Shown: positions 8,885 through 47,690 of the stretch, in pieces
Layout: each line of letters begins with the position of its first letter
Position numbering within the stretch: position 1 is the stretch's first letter
NCBI GenBank assembly: GCA_019637105.1
Contig: JAHBWF010000021.1
Coordinates: 1-64,000, forward strand
Source: Labilithrix sp.
GTDB lineage: Bacteria; Myxococcota_A; Polyangia; Polyangiales; Polyangiaceae
Direction: 5' to 3'
Length of the DNA stretch: 64,000 bases
The notes under the pieces: model-generated
What the model was told of the DNA's origin: nothing
Databases searched by the model: none
What the model saw: only the letters and a program-made list of their open reading frames with translations
Program-made: the position numbers and the translations under genes

Positions 8885-9577
8885 TCAGCCGGACGAGCCG
8901 GGGGCGCGCGCCGCGGCGCCCGCGTGGCGCGCCCGATCGACGAAGAGCGTCGCGACCACGACGAGGAGCATGGTCGGGAACACGTAAAACGCGGGGGTGT
9001 CCCACGCGGCGCCTCGCGGGCGGTACACGCCGCCCGTCGCCGCGCAGACCGCGAGGTAGAGCGCGAGGATCACGACGCCCGAGCGCTGCCAGAGCCGCCG
9101 GTCGATCGAAGGCTCGGGCTCGGGCGCCTCGTGCGCGCGTCGCGGCGCGAGGACGGGGCGCCACGCCGGCCGGTCCCAGACGAGGAGGGCCAGCGTGCCC
9201 AGCCCGATCAGCGTCACCACGCTGGCGGTCGGGTAGACCTTCGTGCTCCAGCAGAGGGCCGAGATGGTCGTGAAGATCGGCGCCGCCAGGAGCGCTCCGA
9301 GCGTCGCGAAGCGCTGCGTGACGAGCAGCGTCGCCGCCACGAGCTGAACCGCGCCGACGAGCTGGTAGAACGCGCCGGTCGCGTGGAACGCGTGGAGGAA
9401 GTCGTGGAACGGACCGTGGAGGTGCGGATCCGTGAACGGCTCGGCGAGCACCTTCTTGAGCCCGGCCGGGAAGAGCGAGAACCCCACGAAGATGCGCAGC
9501 ACGGCGCCCGCGAGGTGGAGCGATCTCTCGCGGCGCGCGCGGAGGACGAGGTCGTCGAGCGTCGTCGCCAGCGCCAC
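8885..9577 (-). CDS. DoxX-like integral membrane protein
   Basis: The protein has about six hydrophobic helices. The N-terminal segment LRIFVGFSLFPAGLKKVLAEPF, followed by FHDFLHAFHATGAFYQLVGAVQLVAATLL, is typical of DoxX/DoxD-like proteins, a broad family of small membrane proteins with poorly defined roles. The start is uncertain. GTG at 9577 begins just before the family similarity. An ATG at 9667 would add 30 mostly Arg/Gly residues that look like translated non-coding DNA, so I prefer the GTG. Confidence 0.65.
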   Translation of the reverse strand: MALATTLDDLVLRARRERSLHLAGAVLRIFVGFSLFPAGLKKVLAEPFTDPHLHGPFHDFLHAFHATGAFYQLVGAVQLVAATLLVTQRFATLGALLAAPIFTTISALCWSTKVYPTASVVTLIGLGTLALLVWDRPAWRPVLAPRRAHEAPEPEPSIDRRLWQRSGVVILALYLAVCAATGGVYRPRGAAWDTPAFYVFPTMLLVVVATLFVDRARHAGAAARAPGSSG

Positions 9578-9891
9578 GGCCGAGACGCTACGTCGCGCGC
9601 TCCGTCGTCGCAAGCCGCCGCCCGCGCGCGGGCGCCGAGGTACGACATCCTGGGGAAGGATCTCCACGGACGAGCGTAAACGAGTCCGGACGGCCCCACG
9701 GTGGGGGGCCGGGTCGAAGCTGTCCTCGCCGACGACTGTCGCTCCCGCGGTCGGTCGGCCGACACCTGTGCGACCCGGCGCGTCCGCCCTCTGCCCGTCG
9801 ACGACGCGTGAGCCTTCGGCGCGCGGCCGTCGACGTGCGCGTCGAAACCCGTGTGCTCGAGCGCGTCGCGCTCGCTCTCTTGGAGCTCGTC
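9578..9891. other. Divergent intergenic region, nothing specific seen
   Basis: About 314 bases lie between the DoxX-like gene (minus) and the proline-linker lipoprotein (plus). If the DoxX-like gene starts at 9667 the gap is 224 bases. Apart from the TTGGAG ribosome-binding site before 9892, I see no convincing promoter, hairpin or repeat. Confidence 0.5.
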
Positions 9892-40568: not shown

Positions 40569-41300
40569 CTAGAGCATGTCGAGGGTCAAGACGAGCCGGC
40601 GCTCGCCCGTGAGCTCGATCGGCGGCGAGCGGTGGATGGCCCCGCGGCCCTCGTTCCCGGCGTGAAGCTCGCCCTTCAGCAAGAGGACGTCGCCGGCGCC
40701 GGTTCGGTGGACGCGCGCGCCGCGGCGGACGACGCGCGCGTTCGCCGCCTCGATGCTCGGGTGCTGGCGTCGCAGCGCGTCGCGGTCGACGTCCCGATCG
40801 TCGAGCCACTCGGTCCCTGGCCCCGCGTACGTGCAGACGAGGCGGACGCGCTTGTAGTCCGAGTGGAGCTTGCGGCACTTGTCGGTGACGACGGTGGCGA
40901 GCGACGCGCGGAGCGAAGGCGCCCCGACGACGCCGGCGAAGCGCGTCGCGAGCGAGGCCACGTCGGCGGCCCACGCCCTCGCCTCCGCGCCGTCGGGGAG
41001 CCCGGCGAAGAGGTCGCTCACCGAGGGCCGCGCGGCCGAGACGTCGCACGCCGCGTCGTGAACGAGCCCGCGGCCGAGCTGGGCGAGCCATTCGAGGAGG
41101 CGCGGCGCGAGCGCGCGCCTCCAGACGCACACGTTGATCTCGGGCCGGAGGATGGTCGCGAGGCCGTCGCCGCGCCTCACGATCGCGGACGACGCCGGCG
41201 CGCGCGCCACCCGCGGGCTACGATCCATCGACGCCATGACGGCGCCGGAGGTCCTCGGTGCCGGGGTCGCGCGAGCGCTGGCGCGTGAGCTCATCGTCAT
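40569..41300 (-). CDS. DUF1826 protein, copy 1
   Basis: This 243-residue protein is of the DUF1826 family, repeatedly found in zinc-starvation (Zur) operons. Residues [22 protein letters not shown] and later GDVLLLKGE ... AIHRSPP give an HxD...H pattern on a beta-rich scaffold. That is compatible with a cupin or Fe(II)/2-oxoglutarate oxygenase-like fold (inference). It overlaps the S18 paralogue by 4 bases (ATGA 41297-41300) and is last in the operon COG0523-rpsR-DUF1826. It is 26-30% alike by eye to copy 2 at 44.3 kb over the shared motifs, not measured. Confidence 0.8.
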
Positions 41301-41605
41301 GTGTTGGAGACGGTGAACGGGAGCAGGGCGATGTTGCGCGCTCGCTTCACCGCGGTGGCGAGGTCGCGCTGCTGGCGCGCGGACAGACCGGAGATGCGCC
41401 GCGGGACGAGCTTCCCTCGCTCGGTGATGAAGTGCCGGAGCGTCTGGACGTCTTTGTAGTCGAAGCGGTAGCTCCCGCTCAGGCCGAGCCGGTTCGCGAG
41501 TCGTTTGCGCGCCTTCGGGCCGCGATCGAGCTCGGCGTTGACGATGCCGCCGGTGCCGAACTCGTCCTCCTTGCGCTGCGGGTCGATCTGCTTGTCGTCG
41601 ATCAT
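41297..41605 (-). CDS. rpsR: Zinc-free paralogue of ribosomal protein S18
   Basis: This 102-residue S18 protein has the conserved core [50 protein letters not shown]. The N-terminal cysteines that bind zinc in the standard form are absent, and the whole protein has no cysteine. Such C-minus paralogues replace zinc-binding S18 when zinc is scarce and free metal for other uses. The start at 41605 (MIDDKQ) is preferred over the longer frame. It is the second gene of the operon that starts behind the palindrome at 42957. Confidence 0.9.
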
Positions 41606-41684
41606 GGGGTCTCCTCCGTGGTCTCGAGTCGTCCGCGAGGTCACCGGCCGCGCGCCACGAGCGAGCGCGCCGTCGGTCGGTCGT

Positions 41685-42926
41685 TCACGCGCCCTCCGCG
41701 GCGACCGAAGAAGGCTCGCGCGGCTCGGCGAACGGGACGGGGCCCCAGTGCGGGAACGGATCGGGCAGCCGCGCCCAACGCGCCGCTCCGCCGGCCATCT
41801 CGTCTTCGTCGAGCAAGCAGCGATCGAAGCCGGCGCGGAGCGCGGGCTCGTCCATCCCGATGCCGATGAGCACGATCTCCTGCCGGCGATCCCCGTACGG
41901 GCCGCTCGTCACCGACCGGATCTCGGACAAAGCGTCCGGATCGGTCGGCCACGCGGCGCGAGGGACGGCCGCCCACCAGAAGCCGGTGCGCGCCGTCCGG
42001 CACACCGCGCCGGCCTGGGACCACGAGCCCACCTCCGCCATCCGGGAGGCGAGCCAGAAGAAGCCCTTCGAGCGGATCACGCCCGGCCACTCCGTCGAGA
42101 AGAACGCGGAGAGGCGCGCGGGGTGGAACGGCCTCCGCGCGCGGTAGACGAAGCTCGCGATCCCGTACGCCTCGGTCTCCGGGGTGTGGAGGCCCGCGAG
42201 CTCCCGGGCCCAGCCCGCGCGGGTCGCGGCCTTGCCTTCGTCGAAGAGGTGGGTGTCGAGGACGGCGTCGAGCGGCGCCGCCCCGTGGAGCGCGCGCACG
42301 ATCCGCGCGCCCGGGTTGAGGTGGTGGAGGATCGCTTCGAGCCGGCCGAGCTCTTCTTCGGCGACGAGATCCGTCTTCGACAGGACGAGGACGTCGGCGA
42401 ACTCGACTTGCTCCACGAGCAGATCCGCGATCGTCCTTCGATCCTCCAGCCCGAGCGCCAGGCCGCGGGCGTCGAGGTCGTCGACCGAGCCGTAGTCCTG
42501 GAGGAAGCCCGCCGAGTCGACGACGGTGACCATCGTATCGAGGCGCGCGACGTCGGAGAGGCTCTCCCCCGCCTCGTTCCGGAACGAGAACGTGGCGGCG
42601 ACGGGCATCGGCTCGGAGATGCCCGTCGACTCGATGAGGAGGCTGTCGAACCGCCCTTCGCGCGCCAGCCGCGCGACCTCGAGGAGGAGGTCCTCGCGGA
42701 GCGTGCAGCAGATGCACCCGTTCGACATCTCGACGAGCTTCTCCTCGCGCCGATCGAGCGAGGCGTTGCCGCGCTGGACGAGCTGGGCGTCGATGTTGAC
42801 CTCGCTCATGTCGTTGACGATGACCGCCACTCTGCGGCCCTCGCGGTTCGCGAGCACGTGGTTCAAGAGCGTGGTCTTCCCCGCGCCGAGGAAGCCCGAG
42901 AGGACCGTCACCGGGAGTCGCTTCAT
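41685..42926 (-). CDS. COG0523 GTPase (zinc metallochaperone family), copy 1
   Basis: This 413-residue GTPase of the COG0523/ZigA (CobW-like) family has Walker [12 protein letters not shown] (residues 11-21), metal site [10 protein letters not shown] (~70), ESTGISEP, and guanine specificity in LSKTDLV. The C-terminal CobW domain begins ~residue 250 ([14 protein letters not shown]). Such proteins deliver zinc to client enzymes under starvation. Its promoter overlaps the predicted Zur box: -35 TTGCAT (complement 42956-42961), 17 bp, then TACAGG (42938-42933) 6 nt before ATG. It leads the operon with zinc-free S18 and DUF1826. Confidence 0.9.
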
Positions 42927-42932
42927 CGTCGT

Positions 42933-42971
42933 CCTGTAGCGCGCGCCGGATGCTTATGCAATCAAATTGCA
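42933..42971 (-). promoter_or_regulatory. Promoter with predicted Zur box 1
   Basis: TGCAATCAAATTGCA (42957-42971) is a perfect 6-bp inverted repeat around CAA. It covers the -35 TTGCAT of a minus-strand promoter whose -10 is TACAGG (17-bp spacer), in front of COG0523 copy 1. Related palindromes occur at 45994 and 46156. Assignment to Zur comes from the genes controlled, because no Fur-family gene is in the window. Confidence 0.7.
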
Positions 42972-43036
42972 ATTAAGGCTCGCGCGGCCCGCCCTCGCCG
43001 TCCGGCCTCGCCGGACGTGGCCCGCCGGCGCGCCGG

Positions 43037-44278
43037 TCAGTCGTCGAAGGTCCACTCGGGGAAGGGATCGTCGAGCGCGGTCCAGCCCGCCGGCCCGGCG
43101 GCGAGCTCGCCGCTCGTGAGGAGCGCCGCGTCGAGCCGCGCGCGGAGCGCGGCCTCGTCCACGTCCACGCCGATGAACACGAGCTCCTGCCTGCGGTCGC
43201 CCCACGGCTCCCGCCAGAGGCGTTCGAGCTCGGCGCGCTGGTCGTCGTCGTCCGGCCGCTCGTCTTCGGGGAGCGCCGCGTACCAGATGCCGGCCGCCTC
43301 GCACCGCCCCGAGCCGCCGGCTTGAGACCAGAGCCCCGTCACGGCCATGCGCGACGCGAGCCAGAAGAAGCCCTTCGAGCGCAGGACGCCGCGGAAGGTC
43401 GCGGGGTCGTGGAGGAGGCGCCAGAAGCGCCCCGGGTGGAAGGGCACGCGCGCGCGATAGACGAAGCTCGCGATCCCGTACTCCTCGGCCTCGGGCGAGC
43501 GCGCCCCCCGGAGCTCGGCGAGCCAGCCCGGCGCGGCCGCGGCCTTCTCGAAATCGAACAGGCCCGTGTCGAGGACGGAATCGAGCGGTACGCGGCCGTG
43601 CGAGGCGCGGACGATGCGCGCGCCGGTGTTCAGGCTCCGGAGGATCGCCTCCAGGCGGTCGCGCTCGTCGCTCGAGACGAGATCGAGCTTGGAGAGCACG
43701 AGGACGTCGGCGAACTCGATCTGCTCGACGAGGAGGTCCGCGACCGTCCGGTCGTCGTCGTCGCCGATCGCGGCCCGGCGCTCGCGGAGATCGTCTTCGC
43801 TCTGCCAGTCGGCGAGGAAGCGCTCGGCGTCGACGACGGTCACCATCGTGTCGAGGCGCGCCACGTCCGAGAGCGCCCGCCCCGCCTCGTCGGTGAAGGT
43901 GAACGTCTCGGCGACGGGGAGCGGCTCCGAGACGCCCGTCGACTCGACGAGCAGGTAGTCGAATCGTCCCTCGCGCGCGAGCTTCGCGACCTCGACGAGG
44001 AGGTCCTCCCGCAACGTGCAGCAGATGCACCCGTTTTGCATCTCGACGATCTTCTCGTCGACGCGCGAGAGCGACGCGGCGCCGCTCCTGACGAGCTGCG
44101 CGTCGACGTTGACCTCGCTCATGTCGTTGACGATGACCGCGACCTTGAGGCCCTCGCGGTTCGCGAGCACGTGGTTCAGGAGCGTGGTCTTCCCGGCGCC
44201 GAGGAAGCCCGAGAGGACGGTCACGGGCAGCCTTCGAGGGCCGGACGGGGTTCCGGAGGTGAGCGTCGACGAGGCCAT
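43037..44278 (-). CDS. COG0523 GTPase (zinc metallochaperone family), copy 2
   Basis: This 413-residue paralogue of the copy at 41.7-42.9 kb carries a short extra N-terminus ([16 protein letters not shown]) before [20 protein letters not shown]. Motifs [18 protein letters not shown] and LSKLDLV are intact, and the C-terminal domain follows ([14 protein letters not shown]). The two copies match closely through the G domain and less in the tail, so they probably serve different clients. The start is 2 bases after the stop of DUF1826 copy 2. It is the last gene of the lipoprotein-L33-DUF1826-GTPase operon. Confidence 0.9.
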
Positions 44279-44280
44279 GT

Positions 44281-44982
44281 CTATCCGAGCGGGTCGATGG
44301 TGAGGAGGAGGCGGGGGACGGAGCGCCGGCAGGGGGAGCGATGGATCGCGCCGCGCGCCTCGTTCTCCGGCCAGGCGGCGCCCTTCAGGAGGACGACGTC
44401 GAGCGGAGCGCAGCGCTGAATCACGGCGTCGCGCCGGACGGCGGCGGCGAGGGGGAGCGGCGGGTGCATCGTCAGGACGGAGCGGTCGACGTCGCGCTCC
44501 TCGAGCCATTCGCTCGCGTCTCCGGCGTAGGTGCACAGCAGGCGGACGGTGACGTGGTCGACGTGGAAGCCGGGGCACATCGGCGCGTCGAGCCGGACGA
44601 GGCGGACGCCGACGCGTCGGGCGCCGGTCAGCTGCGTGACGACCTCGATCCAGTACGCGAGGTCTTCGACGAGGACGTCGCGCGCGTCGTCCGGCGGGAG
44701 CCGCGCGGCGAGCTCGTCCAGCGCGTCGAGGCCGCCCGCCTGCTCGAACGCGGCCGTGGCCTTGAACGAGAACGCTCCGTCACGCGCGAGCCGTGACGTG
44801 TAGGCGGAGAGCGCCGCGTGCGCTCGACGCCGCAACACCACGACGTTCACGTGCGGCTCGAAGATGGCCGCGAGATCGATCGTCTCGTCGACCCAGACGG
44901 TGCTGGACGCCGCTCCGTCGGCGCGCCGAGCGGTGACGACGTCCTCCCGCGGGGAGGCGGAGTGCCGGCTGCGGTCCTTCAT
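44281..44982 (-). CDS. DUF1826 protein, copy 2
   Basis: This 233-residue DUF1826 family protein has [27 protein letters not shown], then [23 protein letters not shown]. The HxD (His-Val-Asp) and distal His align with those of copy 1 (His-Ser-Asp, IHRSP), supporting a metal-binding triad. Each DUF1826 gene in this window sits next to a COG0523 gene, so the two families are linked in function. It follows the L33 gene by 85 bases and precedes COG0523 copy 2 by 2 bases. Confidence 0.8.
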
Positions 44983-45067
44983 GAGCCTCGCCGAAGGCGC
45001 TCGCCGGAGCGCCGCCGTGCCCCGCGTCGACCGGCGCGGCCGGCGGGGGCGGGACGATCGATCGGCG

Positions 45068-45229
45068 TCACCCCTTCGAGATCTTCTTCTCGACGAAGAC
45101 GACGTGCTTGCGCGCGATCGGGTCGTACTTCTTGAGCTCCAGCTTGTCGGGCATGGTTCGCTTGTTCTTCGTGGTCACGTAGGCGTAGCCGGTGCCTGCG
45201 GTCGATACGAGCTGGATGGTGTCACGCAT
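45068..45229 (-). CDS. rpmG: Zinc-free paralogue of ribosomal protein L33
   Basis: This 53-residue L33 protein reads [20 protein letters not shown], then [20 protein letters not shown] and a basic end KISKG. It has no cysteine, so it lacks the two CxxC zinc pairs of the zinc-binding form and is the type that replaces it in zinc limitation. It sits between a Zur-box lipoprotein and DUF1826 copy 2 on the same strand. It is too short to be picked up by a length-filtered gene search and easily missed. Confidence 0.92.
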
Positions 45230-45274
45230 GAGATGTCCTCGTGGCGTTCGGTTGGCGTTGGAGGTCGGACCGGA

Positions 45275-45976
45275 TCACTCCGGGATGCAGCGCATCGCGT
45301 CCGCCGGGTCGGGGACGTATCCGTCGTCGCAGTGGCAGTGGTCTCCGTGGGCGTGCCCGTGGCCGCTGCACTCCTCCTCGCCGGGGGCCTCGGTCATCGT
45401 GGCGCCGAACTCGTGCGCGGAGACGCAGAGCGTCTCTCCGTTCGGCACGGGGGTGGTCGCCCCGTCGCGTCCGATCGTCACCTCGCGGAGGACGAGCTCG
45501 TCGAGCGTCCCGGAGAGCGCGCCGTCCGCCTTCATTTCGACGGCGGAGAGCGAGACGGTGCCGCCCTCGACGGGCATGAAGGTCTTGTCGCACTCCACGC
45601 CGCCGCCCGCGCTCTTGCAGCCCGTCTCGAGGACGACGCAGAGGCCGCACGTCTCGTAGCTGACGTCGTCCGCGCCGATCGTGTGGGTCTTCGCGCTCAT
45701 CGGGCCTCCGGCCGCCGCGTACCCTTCGATCGAGAGCACCGACCCGGCGTCCTTGCTCCGGAAGGCCCACGCCTGCTTCCCCGTCGCGTCCTCGCCGAAC
45801 GCCGCGATCGCGCCGCTGGAGGGAGGCGTGGTCGGAGCGCAGGCGGGCGACGGCTCGCCCGTGTCGTCGCCGGGCGCCGTCGCCCCGGCGTCGGTCGGAG
45901 CGGCGCCGGGCGACGACGTGGAGGTGGCGCAGGCGGAGAGGAGCAGCGCGGCGAGGACGAGGCCGTGAGTGTTCAT
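45275..45976 (-). CDS. Zinc-island lipoprotein with His/Cys-rich C-terminus
   Basis: This 233-residue lipoprotein has a lipobox ending LLLSAC at Cys16, then a Pro/Thr/Asp linker. The central beta-rich domain (residues ~55-195) contains CGLCVVLETGCKSAGGGVEC. The last ~30 residues read CSGHGHAHGDHCHCDDGYVP. Alternating His and Cys of this density predicts zinc or other transition-metal binding at the cell surface. A 15-bp palindrome lies 18 bp before the ATG. It is the first gene of an operon with zinc-free L33, DUF1826 and COG0523. The same His/Cys motif recurs in the divergent HAF-repeat lipoprotein. Confidence 0.75.
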   Translation of the reverse strand: MNTHGLVLAALLLSACATSTSSPGAAPTDAGATAPGDDTGEPSPACAPTTPPSSGAIAAFGEDATGKQAWAFRSKDAGSVLSIEGYAAAGGPMSAKTHTIGADDVSYETCGLCVVLETGCKSAGGGVECDKTFMPVEGGTVSLSAVEMKADGALSGTLDELVLREVTIGRDGATTPVPNGETLCVSAHEFGATMTEAPGEEECSGHGHAHGDHCHCDDGYVPDPADAMRCIPE

Positions 45977-45993
45977 CGGGAGGGACGAACAAA

Positions 45994-46008
45994 TGCAACT
46001 GAACTGCA
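45994..46008. promoter_or_regulatory. Predicted Zur box 2
   Basis: TGCAACTGAACTGCA (extended on both sides to AA..TT symmetry) lies 18 bp before the His/Cys lipoprotein gene on the minus strand. It directly abuts a CATAAT hexamer (complement 46008-46013). It matches the boxes at 42957 and 46156 at most positions. Confidence 0.65.
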
Positions 46009-46155
46009 TTATGGTCAAGGGGCGATCGGCGAGGTCCGCCGGTTCATCGGTTGATGAAGCGGCGCGCGCGGGAGTGAGGCGGACGCGCACCGAACGCTCA
46101 CAGGAGGACGGTTGAACGATTGAGCCGACGTCGACGCCGCGCCTCGTCATGGATT

Positions 46156-46170
46156 GGCAATTGAGTTGCG
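46156..46170. promoter_or_regulatory. Predicted Zur box 3
   Basis: GGCAATTGAGTTGCG holds the 13-bp core GCAATTGAGTTGC, symmetric except at the centre. It lies 54 bp before the plus-strand HAF-repeat lipoprotein. It shares GCAA..T.A.TTGC with the other two boxes and is the weakest of the three at the ends. Confidence 0.55.
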
Positions 46171-46223
46171 TTTATCGTGCGCGCCTTCCCCGGCCGCGCC
46201 GGGCACCACCTCGGAGGAAACGT

Positions 46224-47690
46224 ATGTCGTCGCCCGCTCCCCGCACGTCCCTTCACGCCGTCCTCGCCGCCTTCGCCGCCCCGGTGCTGGCCGCGGCGGC
46301 CTTCGTCGCCTGCGGAGGAGACGACCCGAGCGACGTCTCGGCGGACGCAGGCGCCGCCGACGTGGGGGCGCAGGACGAAGACGCGGGCGAGACGTCCGAC
46401 GGCCCCGACGCCTCGGAGTCCGACGCCGACGTCGACGCGGCGTCGGACGCAGGGCTCGATTGCGGGCCGAACGGCGAGGCCCACGGCGATCACTGCCACT
46501 GCGCGCCCGGCTTCCGCGAGGGCGACGGCGGCTGCGAGGAGGAGGCGGACGGCGGGGGCGATGCGGGCGACGCGGGCGCCGTTTGCGGCGGCCACGGCCA
46601 CCTCCACGGCGCGACGTGCCACTGCGACGCCGGATACGTCGCGTCGGGCGACACGTGCGTCCCCGCGCCGGTCGCCGACGCCGGGGCGCCGCTCGAGCTG
46701 CGCTACGGCATCTCCCGCGTCGGCTTCGACGACACCCTCGCGACCTACGCGCGGTCGCTCAACGCGAGCCGGCAGGTGACGGGCAACGGGAACGCGCCCG
46801 GCGTGACCGGGCTTCGCGCCTACGCGTGGGACCCGACGCCCGCGCCGGCCGGCACGATCACGAACCTCGGCGTCCTCCCGGGGAGCAACGACTTCAGCCG
46901 CGGCTACGCGATCAACGCGGCGGGCGTCGTCGTCGGCGAGAGCGACAACAACACGTCGCGCGCGTTCCGCTGGGAGGCCGGCGTCATGACGGACCTCGGC
47001 ACCCTCGGCGGGGCGTCGGCCGTCGCCACCTCGATCAACGACGACGGGGTGATCGTCGGAGCCTCGAGCAACGGCGCGACGAGCCGCGCGTTCAAGTACG
47101 TGGCGGGGACGATGAGCGCGCTCCCGTCGCTCGACGGCTCGACGACGACCCCCTCTCGCGCGACCTCGATCAACGCCGCCGGCGACGTCGTCGGCTACTC
47201 GCGCAACGCGAGCGGCGTCACGCGCGGGACGATGTGGCGCGCCGACGGCACGATCGTCAACCTCGGCTACCTCGTCGCGGGGAGCCTGAGCTGGGCGTTC
47301 GACGTGAACGCCCACAGGACGGTCGTGGGATCGGCCGTGGTCGGCGTCACGCCGAGCAACTCGAGCATCTATCACCCGTTCCTCTGGGACGACGGCGCGA
47401 TGCGCGATCTCGGCACCCTCGGAGGCTTCACCCACGCCGAGGCGATGGCGATCAACGACGACGGCTGGGTGGTCGGCTACTCGGGGAACTTCTACAACTC
47501 TCCGACGACCGGCGCCGCGGCCGCCGTGCTCTGGGTCGGCGACGAGATCTACGATCTCAACGTGGTGCTCCCGGCGAACTCCGGCTGGACGCTGCTGGCG
47601 GCGATGGACATCAACGCCCACGGCGACATCGTCGGGTACGGCCGCAAGGACGGCGTCATCGCGTCGTTCTTGCTCACCCGCGAGCCCTGA
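46224..47690 (+). CDS. HAF-repeat lipoprotein with His/Cys metal-binding-like motifs
   Basis: This 488-residue lipoprotein has a lipobox ending FVACG near residue 31 and a long Asp/Ala linker. Two His/Cys motifs follow, HGDHCHCAPGF (DNA 46479-46514) and GGHGHLHGATCHCDAGY (DNA 46587-46635). The C-terminal ~300 residues contain about six HAF-type units (INAAGVVVGES, INDDGVIVGAS, INAAGDVVGYS, INDDGWVVGYS, INAHGDIVGYG) with partner strands such as GVMTDLGTLGG. These probably form a beta-propeller. GGAGGAAA sets the start at 46224. A predicted Zur box lies upstream. The His/Cys motif shared with the divergent lipoprotein suggests zinc capture at the surface. Confidence 0.75.
   Translation: MSSPAPRTSLHAVLAAFAAPVLAAAAFVACGGDDPSDVSADAGAADVGAQDEDAGETSDGPDASESDADVDAASDAGLDCGPNGEAHGDHCHCAPGFREGDGGCEEEADGGGDAGDAGAVCGGHGHLHGATCHCDAGYVASGDTCVPAPVADAGAPLELRYGISRVGFDDTLATYARSLNASRQVTGNGNAPGVTGLRAYAWDPTPAPAGTITNLGVLPGSNDFSRGYAINAAGVVVGESDNNTSRAFRWEAGVMTDLGTLGGASAVATSINDDGVIVGASSNGATSRAFKYVAGTMSALPSLDGSTTTPSRATSINAAGDVVGYSRNASGVTRGTMWRADGTIVNLGYLVAGSLSWAFDVNAHRTVVGSAVVGVTPSNSSIYHPFLWDDGAMRDLGTLGGFTHAEAMAINDDGWVVGYSGNFYNSPTTGAAAAVLWVGDEIYDLNVVLPANSGWTLLAAMDINAHGDIVGYGRKDGVIASFLLTREP

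Follow-up and report, generated by a model that had tools for sequence, protein, structure and literature searches.

Zinc starvation responses controlled by Zur have been described in Streptomyces, Bacillus, Acinetobacter, and others (PMC6103462). These regulons contain a COG0523 GTPase, zinc-free ribosomal paralogues, and TonB-dependent receptors, with a palindromic box before the genes and Fur-family genes beside the boxes. Zinc-free paralogues of S18 and L33 are a hallmark of zinc sparing (PMC3087516). ZnuABC is usually, but not universally, under Zur, as it is not Zur-regulated in Francisella novicida (PMC5786701). In F. novicida (FTN_0880/FTN_1758), DUF1826 and one COG0523 gene are Zur-regulated, and clusters of Zur, COG0523, and DUF1826 (PMC2770081) likewise place the latter two under one zinc regulator. 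In Caulobacter, the outer-membrane TonB receptors ZnuK/L/M are key zinc scavengers in the Zur regulon, which also has an ABC importer, znuGHI (PMC4176598). The Nur regulon of Streptomyces has a nickel sensor over sodF and sodN.

Here, we describe an island in Labilithrix sp. (Bacteria; Myxococcota_A; Polyangia; Polyangiales; Polyangiaceae in GTDB) that is very probably one arm of a Polyangiales zinc-starvation regulon of the Zur type with its own box. The analysis itself establishes which genes are present, the box and how far it is conserved, and that it is linked to Fur-family genes. The island shares with the Zur regulons the kinds of target gene, the palindromic box, and the Fur-family genes beside boxes; it also shares the probable joint control of COG0523 and DUF1826 by one zinc regulator and, with Caulobacter, TonB receptors as candidate zinc scavengers. 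It differs in the sequence of its box, which nearly matches the Nur palindrome, in the added His/Cys lipoproteins and MbnP-like genes, and in that ZnuA was not found, unlike in Caulobacter with its ABC importer. At the loci read, no gene of the sodF/sodN kind was noticed. Neither PMC6103462 nor PMC8000910 contains the words Myxococc..., Deltaproteobacteria, or lipoprotein.

Organization of the Island

The window is the whole stretch of DNA analysed, 64 kb long (assembly GCA_019637105.1, contig JAHBWF010000021.1, positions 1-64,000, forward strand), and the island occupies 40569..47690 within it. Operon A, on the minus strand, is ordered His-rich lipoprotein LipA, zinc-free L33, DUF1826, and ZigA, while operon B, on the same strand, is ordered ZigA, zinc-free S18, and DUF1826. 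A second lipoprotein gene, LipB, is divergent on the plus strand, and a 15-bp palindrome, about TGCAAYTNARTTGCA, precedes both operons and LipB. The features are as follows.

40569..41237, minus: DUF1826 copy a, predicted Fe(II)/2-oxoglutarate dioxygenase (PF08856, 179.5 bits, cut-off 22)
41297..41605, minus: zinc-free (C-minus) S18 paralogue (PF01084/TIGR00165)
41685..42926, minus: COG0523 GTPase ZigA copy 2 (NF038288, 629.1 bits, cut-off 600)
42957..42971, no strand: operator box 1, TGCAATCAAATTGCA, arms perfectly palindromic, 30 bp upstream of the ZigA copy 2 start
43037..44278, minus: COG0523 GTPase ZigA copy 1 (NF038288, 637.1 bits, cut-off 600)
44281..44982, minus: DUF1826 copy b (PF08856, 173.2 bits, cut-off 22), HxD...H...R residues as in copy a by alignment
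45068..45229, minus: zinc-free (C-minus) L33 paralogue (PF00471)
45275..45976, minus: lipoprotein LipA, first gene of its operon, with an orthologue 59% identical in Labilithrix sp. ACE_MYX5
45278..45376, minus: His-rich half-EGF module of LipA, CSGHGHAHGDHCHCDDGY...C, a putative metal-binding tail found by pattern
45994..46008, no strand: operator box 2, TGCAACTGAACTGCA, 17 bp upstream of the LipA start
46156..46170, no strand: operator box 3, GGCAATTGAGTTGCG, degenerate, 53 bp upstream of the LipB start
46224..47690, plus: lipoprotein LipB, two His-rich half-EGF modules (at about 46482 and 46605), then HAF repeats (TIGR02913, 126.7 bits)

Pfam and NCBIfam matches in the window bear out the gene content and positions given in an earlier note on this DNA, including its duplicated COG0523-DUF1826 pairs (two ZigA and two PF08856 matches). 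That note had also called the S18 and L33 zinc-free, and the rest of the genome agrees. Both families are matched twice in the genome; the other S18, on contig C179, has CKFC and the other L33, on contig C314, has CxxC...CxxC, motifs that are missing from the window copies, which are therefore read as zinc-free paralogues. The genome has a zinc-sparing set of targets: COG0523 GTPases, and C-minus ribosomal paralogues whose C-plus counterparts are encoded at other places. In 20 of 35 loci of relatives, an L33 gene is found no more than 6 kb from ZigA, and the L33 is C-minus, with one Cys at most, in every one of the 20. At one relative's locus (L107), an S18 adjoining an exact box keeps CxxC, which speaks against the zinc-sparing idea there.

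The Operator Box and Its Conservation

The earlier note had placed three copies of a 15-mer, TGCAAyTgAAyTGCA, at 42957, 45994, and 46156, and had proposed a regulon with a box of its own. A search of the 64 kb for this 15-mer with up to three mismatches on both strands gave six matches, all at these three places, against 0.40 expected, and none of 100 shuffles reached six. In addition, a matrix built on 26 sites from the ZigA promoters of relatives, with the window excluded, ranks the three boxes first to third in the window (26.0, 18.5, and 13.7 bits); simulated 64-kb sequences (n = 40) held a mean of 0.05 sites at or above the weakest of them. The fourth-ranked site (13.6 bits at 44026) falls within ZigA coding sequence, and the box before LipB is weak. 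By both measures the three boxes exceed chance.

Across relatives, 28 of 40 regions upstream of ZigA, two of them from the window, carry the box within one mismatch (14 exactly) and 12 do not, while 59 scrambled palindromes on the same regions gave a mean of 0.25, a maximum of 4, and no exact match. In 145 genomes, exact TGCAAYNNNRTTGCA occurs at 104 sites against 7 for the reversed control in the 41 with ZigA, and at 68 against 28 in the 104 without it; the presence of the box is associated with that of ZigA (Fisher p 3e-7, with relatedness ignored). The orthologous operon of Labilithrix sp. ACE_MYX5 reads box, lipoprotein, L33, DUF1826, ZigA, and DUF1826, and in Sorangium cellulosum So0157-2 (L181) exact boxes precede an L33 that lacks CxxC and a DUF1826 gene.

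That the palindrome is a chance occurrence or a dispersed repeat with no relation to these genes can hardly be right. The genome does hold a repeat, GGCGCAACTCGGTTGCGCC with variants, which accounts for 9 of its 12 matches to YGCAAYNNNRTTGCR, but the boxes of the window and of a second locus on contig C79 are unlike it in both sequence and flanks, and conservation before ZigA, with the scramble and matrix controls, contradicts this explanation. Within the genome, the loose pattern (two mismatches) is not enriched: it has 257 sites, and its reversed control has 760. Sixteen sites lie within one mismatch, five of which are predicted operators; among the other 11, one is inside ZigA coding sequence, and the nine more that were read are in coding sequence, at two Fur-box-like sites, or at unexplained places.

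Fur-Family Regulators and the Second Locus

The C79 locus encodes two Fur-family regulators (FUR1 and FUR2, PF01475), a regulator of the ArsR type, and lipoproteins rich in His and Cys, as well as an MbnP-like protein whose gene adjoins that of a TonB receptor. One box stands before FUR1 and another between FUR2 and ArsR. When 34 kb of C79 were scanned, the five best matrix sites fell before FUR1, in the FUR2/ArsR gap, and before two lipoprotein genes and the MbnP-like gene. FUR1 and FUR2 alone among the five FUR genes of the genome have a box within about 1.5 kb. The box within one mismatch is present at 17 of 30 FUR1-homologue loci (this genome included) and absent from 13, whereas 59 scrambles there gave a mean of 0.68 and a maximum of 7. 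Two relatives hold parts of the window and C79 loci together: L183 in a single cluster (AztD-like, TonB, two MbnP-like, box, His-rich lipoprotein, FUR1, box, DUF1826, ZigA, and L33), and L129 with one box between ZigA and AztD-like, TonB, and MbnP-like genes. The conservation before ZigA across the order and the adjacent Fur-family genes thus support the proposed regulon and its own box.

HPHF, CxxC, CLP, and CxxC are kept in most FUR1 homologues. None of the NCBIfam models matched by FUR1 and FUR2 is a Zur model, and against known structures Fur proteins score better than those of Zur or Nur. The gene content suggests that the regulator is a zinc-sensing Zur. The znuABC genes expected in the earlier note were not found, as the genome (91.5% complete) has no match to the ZnuA family, PF01297. 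The C79 gene and the L129 gene beside the TonB receptor match the model of the zinc metallochaperone AztD (NF038015) over nearly its full length, at 58.3 and 175.6 bits, below the cut-off of 400, so they are termed AztD-like only.

A regulator of the Nur type (nickel), or another metal-sensing Fur-family protein, could use the box instead, with the genes answering nickel or several metals, but we consider this improbable. The switch appears unlike described zinc switches and resembles the Streptomyces consensus TTGCAA-N5-TTGCAA (PMC3919588); box 1 fits its form tTGCaa-N5-ttGCAA, reading ATGCAA-TCAAA-TTGCAA. COG0523 proteins are also akin to the UreG nickel chaperones of the G3E family (PMC2770081), and in two relatives (L105 and L107) NicO-family permeases near ZigA are preceded by the box. 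The zinc-free S18 and L33, the C-minus state of L33 beside ZigA in relatives, and the ZigA-level scores of both COG0523 proteins point the other way, and FUR1 is no nearer to chain 3eyy, Nur (22.2 bits), than to 2o03, FurB/Zur (22.1 bits). At the window and C79 loci read, nickel-related target genes were not noticed.

Lipoproteins LipA and LipB

LipA matches no Pfam or NCBIfam family (E up to 0.001), and its model has usable confidence in the His-rich half-EGF module only (block means 63-85). Two lipoprotein modules, HGHxHGxxCHCDxGY and HxCxHxxxGP, turn up repeatedly alongside the box or ZigA. Eight genomes of the order, besides ACE_MYX5, carry the His module, and seven of the eight have ZigA; three (G038, G048, and G068) came from inspecting ZigA loci, and the unbiased count is five genomes, four with ZigA.

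The earlier note had added surface lipoproteins to the regulon. Their membership is supported by the ACE_MYX5 operon and the two recurring modules, less so for LipB with its weak box, and with their lipobox the two proteins are candidates for a surface location. S18, L33, ZigA, and DUF1826 might be under Zur while LipA and LipB have no zinc role, either as passengers or as lipoproteins general to myxobacteria, which seems unlikely to us. Full-length LipA is matched in this genome and ACE_MYX5 only, and in G032, G069, G139, G060, and G115 the LipA match ends short of the His module or just where it begins, with no box seen at these loci. No box within one mismatch was present near the module in G048 or in the loci of G010, G011, and G017, but boxes lie upstream of it in G038, G068, and G031. 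LipA moreover heads the operon in both Labilithrix genomes, in the same place, with the box 17 bp ahead here and 15 bp ahead in ACE_MYX5.

DUF1826 as a Predicted Dioxygenase

In PMC2770081 and PMC5786701, DUF1826 is given as of unknown function or as found in predicted succinylglutamate desuccinylases. Here, the AlphaFold model of copy a (pLDDT 95.5) has a double-stranded beta-helix fold, and its Foldseek and VIA matches are 2OG oxygenases. HxD...H...R is invariant in 13 DUF1826 sequences collected without these motifs and in a set of 35, 33 of them selected with patterns that contain HxD or HRSP. In Fe(II)/2-oxoglutarate dioxygenases, HxD...H is the iron triad, and a downstream Arg also has a role. 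No PDB sequence relative was found at E up to 1. DUF1826 is newly predicted here, from its model and these invariant residues, to be an Fe(II)/2-oxoglutarate dioxygenase.

Proposed Mechanism and Implications

In the mechanism that we propose for the Zur-type regulon, zinc-loaded Fur-family repressors, with FUR1 and FUR2 of C79 as the best candidates, would prevent transcription by binding the 7-1-7 palindrome that lies shortly before the start codons. As zinc falls, the repressors would leave the boxes and the island genes would be made. The zinc-free S18 and L33 would replace the zinc-holding copies, freeing zinc, the two ZigA GTPases would hand scarce zinc to client proteins, and the two DUF1826 proteins would act as predicted dioxygenases. 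The His/Cys-module lipoproteins may bind zinc in the envelope and supply an uptake route that also involves the C79 TonB receptor and the AztD-like and MbnP-like proteins encoded there. That zinc is the signal, that the genes are repressed, that FUR1 and FUR2 bind the boxes, that the lipoproteins bind zinc and lie at the surface, and that the TonB system takes zinc up are what we infer from these loci.

A more tentative and rather doubtful extension is that Polyangiales replace ZnuABC by an envelope system, in which Zur-controlled lipoproteins with the two modules catch zinc outside the cell and pass it to the TonB receptor with its MbnP-like and AztD-like partners. DUF1826, as a new class of Fe(II)/2-oxoglutarate oxygenase made with the zinc-free ribosomal proteins and ZigA, would then hydroxylate a partner, such as the substitute ribosomal proteins, fitting the cell to low zinc.

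In 2009, genomes with paralogous S4, including Myxococcus xanthus and Sorangium cellulosum, were scanned with the then-known Zur motifs, and outside Salinispora no Zur sites near ribosomal paralogues were found (PMC3087516). A box of differing sequence could account for that result, and zinc control in Polyangiales myxobacteria now has a candidate operator that can be tested. DUF1826, a Zur-linked family with no tested function in the literature consulted, gains a specific enzymatic prediction, and the two lipoprotein modules become new candidate zinc-binding modules. His-rich lipoproteins and what is probably an oxygen-using enzyme, neither of them recognised so far as part of the zinc-starvation response, are predicted to take part in it.

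Organization of the Gene Island

The island lies on contig C124 of a genome of 8.45 Mb that is 91.5% complete. Two minus-strand operons and a divergent lipoprotein gene, each behind a copy of a 15-bp palindromic box, had been described in the earlier note, and gene order and box positions were found as described. On the minus strand, the order of transcription is LipA (a lipoprotein), L33, DUF1826b, ZigA copy 1 (a COG0523 GTPase), box 1, ZigA copy 2, S18, and DUF1826a; the gene for a further lipoprotein, LipB, is divergent from this series. The boxes are located as follows:

42957, box 1, 30 bp upstream of a start codon
45994, box 2, 17 bp upstream of a start codon
46156, box 3, 53 bp upstream of a start codon

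The S18 and L33 of the island had been taken to be zinc-free, and the cysteines present in the other genomic copies are absent from both. Labilithrix sp. ACE_MYX5, which belongs to the order Polyangiales, has the two closest named matches of DUF1826a, at 70% and 63% identity.

Conservation of the Box

The 15-mer read from the three sites gives six matches within the window, at up to three mismatches and with both strands counted, versus 0.40 expected. Upstream of ZigA, 40 regions were compared (two of the window and 38 of relatives), and TGCAANNNNNTTGCA was found at no more than one mismatch in 28 and exactly in 14, versus a mean of 0.25, a maximum of 4, and no exact match for 59 other half-site arrangements; the other 12 regions have no box at that threshold. 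A matrix built from 26 sites of relatives, with the window excluded, places the three boxes at ranks 1–3 of the 64 kb, a ranking that is not wholly independent because the training sites were chosen with the window's consensus; the scrambled palindromes before ZigA are the stricter control. The fourth-best match (44026-44040) falls within the ZigA coding sequence, and similar matches are seen inside ZigA of some relatives; upstream regions therefore need separate scoring. Counted over 145 genomes drawn from the order, exact TGCAAYNNNRTTGCA reaches 104 sites where ZigA is present (41 genomes; reversed control, 7) and 68 where it is absent (104 genomes; reversed control, 28). The box proposed from three sites exceeds chance in window count, ZigA upstream regions, and matrix ranking.

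Genes of the relatives were called by codon usage, and some were missed, including ZigA in three of the 38 loci. The named loci found with DUF1826 are not independent of those drawn from the genomes of the order because their contigs, judged by length, are partly identical (for example L187/L107, L188/L113, L189/L110, and L191/L105); L177, L178, L181, and L183 have no counterpart of equal length among the latter contigs.

Occurrence in the Whole Genome and a Mimicking Repeat

The own-genome count is the weak point of the box evidence. At two mismatches, the palindrome is not enriched (257 sites versus 760 for the reversed control), and it was dropped as a whole-genome screen for being too unspecific. 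The tighter YGCAAYNNNRTTGCR gives 12 sites versus one for its control, nine of which belong to a dispersed hairpin repeat, so that own-genome counts alone cannot define the regulon and conservation among relatives was used as the main evidence.

The repeat carries the hairpin GGCGCAACTCGGTTGCGCC and resembles an operator in motif scans. Its copies are at C4:26778, C13:43368, C43:12191, C90:41810, C90:69293, C141:3548, C302:91430, C321:6947, and C323:3658, those at C43 and C90:41810 with slight sequence differences, and in four copies GATCCTGGAACGTCAGGAGC, or a close variant, follows the hairpin. Two near-box sites (up to one mismatch), C44:1465 and C20:3439, precede what appears by eye to be a SAM methyltransferase gene, and a lipoprotein gene, respectively; they resemble Fur boxes and were not counted as members.

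A Second Locus and Its Linkage in Relatives

Three of the five Fur-family genes of the genome lie on contig C79, where the matrix scan covered 34 kb and its five best sites are the following:

37131, box upstream of FUR1
38272, box upstream of a lipoprotein series with HxCxH motifs
44882, box separating FUR2 from a divergent ArsR gene
45698, box upstream of a small His-rich lipoprotein
46693, box upstream of an MbnP-like gene

Next to the last of these genes are another MbnP-like gene, a TonB receptor (labeled by a phmmer match to an L129 gene with plug and barrel domains), and an AztD-like gene. The label MbnP-like is a putative one; for the MbnP-like proteins searched, Pfam and NCBIfam hold no family.

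Parts of the window locus and of the C79 locus are united in relatives. L183 holds, in one stretch, AztD-like, TonB, and MbnP-like genes, a box, a His-rich lipoprotein, FUR1, a box, DUF1826, ZigA, and L33, and the order in L177 is FUR2, box, LipA, L33, DUF1826b, ZigA, and DUF1826a. In L129, a single box separates ZigA from the AztD-like/TonB/MbnP-like series. Two relatives have a NicO-type permease immediately after a box in the vicinity of ZigA (L105:17876-18517 and L107:14549-15145), a candidate inner-membrane metal carrier of the regulon.

The third Fur-family gene of C79 stands just upstream of what appears by eye to be a catalase-peroxidase gene (L022:6860-9181 and 9309-9887), a region with no box at up to one mismatch, and reads as PerR-like by this neighborhood. 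At L021:11685-13975, a MopE-repeat protein region shows a frame change, perhaps an assembly error.

Regulator and Metal

Of the five Fur-family genes of the genome, FUR1 and FUR2 alone have a box no more than about 1.5 kb away. The box is present in 17 of 30 FUR1-homologue loci (scrambles: mean 0.68, maximum 7), and the motifs HPHF, CxxC, CLP, and CxxC are kept in most FUR1 homologues. PDB matches favor Fur, FUR1 scoring FurB/Zur and 3eyy (Nur) equally at 22 bits; no Zur model is among the NCBIfam matches of FUR1 or FUR2. The box has 7-1-7 palindromic symmetry, a form also described for some Zur boxes (PMC6103462), but in its letters it matches the Nur box of Streptomyces (PMC3919588); the part of PMC7055735 covered says nothing on a Nur box. 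Of the proposed myxobacterial Zur regulon with a box of its own, the conserved box beside FUR1 and FUR2 stands. The match in letters to the Nur box and the lack of a Zur model weigh against the assignment to Zur, which is still the likely one. The metal is not decided by the regulator's sequence alone, and the target genes point to zinc.

Ribosomal Paralogues and DUF1826

In Sorangium cellulosum So0157-2, exact boxes lie upstream of an L33 without CxxC and upstream of DUF1826. Among the relatives, two S18 genes lie no farther than 6 kb from ZigA, and that of L107 has CxxC. At L107:6902-7307, an exact box precedes this S18, which by its CxxC differs from the zinc-free S18 of the window; the box may serve the divergent gene. 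For the alignment behind the DUF1826 model, 38 of 80 loci were taken, and 37 gave a reading frame. A filter on HRSP and length passed 35 and removed L205 and L217; L235 and L249 were in addition left out by hand.

Lipoproteins of the Proposed Regulon

HGHxHGxxCHCDxGY-type modules, a His-loaded half-EGF pattern, are present in the tail of LipA and in LipB. The module occurs in Labilithrix ACE_MYX5 and in eight genomes of the order (G000, G010, G011, G017, G031, G038, G048, and G068), seven of which have ZigA and three of which were found by reading ZigA loci; like LipA, the proteins of G010 and G031 carry it at their C-terminal end. Full-length LipA was matched only in its own genome and in ACE_MYX5 (59% identity). 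The LipA structure model (mean pLDDT 36) was unusable save for the His-rich tail. Membership of the lipoproteins in the regulon, as claimed, is supported at part of the loci: boxes precede the module in the window, ACE_MYX5, G038, G068, and G031, but none was found upstream of it at up to one mismatch in the stretches of G048, G010, G011, and G017.

In a second family (HxCxHxxxGP), H, C, H, H, and C are invariant in the alignment. It occurs in 10 of the 145 genomes, seven of them with ZigA, and its loci have the box in 12 of 30 cases at up to one mismatch (59 scrambles: mean 1.0, maximum 8) and exactly in 6 of 30 (mean 0.1, maximum 2), a weaker test than that of ZigA because many loci overlap one another. 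The lipoproteins may bind zinc and may be displayed at the surface.

Relation to Known Zur Regulons

Control by Zur has been described before for COG0523/DUF1826 clusters and for C-minus ribosomal genes (PMC2770081, PMC5786701, and PMC3087516). In PMC3087516, the ribosomal paralogues of the remaining genomes are reported to have no Zur sites nearby, and the genomes tabulated there include Myxococcus xanthus and Sorangium cellulosum So ce 56. A literature search that covered few subscription journals found no myxobacterial Zur regulon and, in the text available to it, no description of DUF1826 as a dioxygenase; a term search of the ZepA paper (PMC10957091) gave no mention of Myxococcota, MbnP, or AztD. 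Boxes had been expected before znuABC, and this genome, at 91.5% completeness, has no ZnuA match. As far as these searches go, this lack of a ZnuA match is new, as are the box and regulon of Polyangiales, its lipoprotein and MbnP-like members, and the prediction of DUF1826 proteins as dioxygenases.
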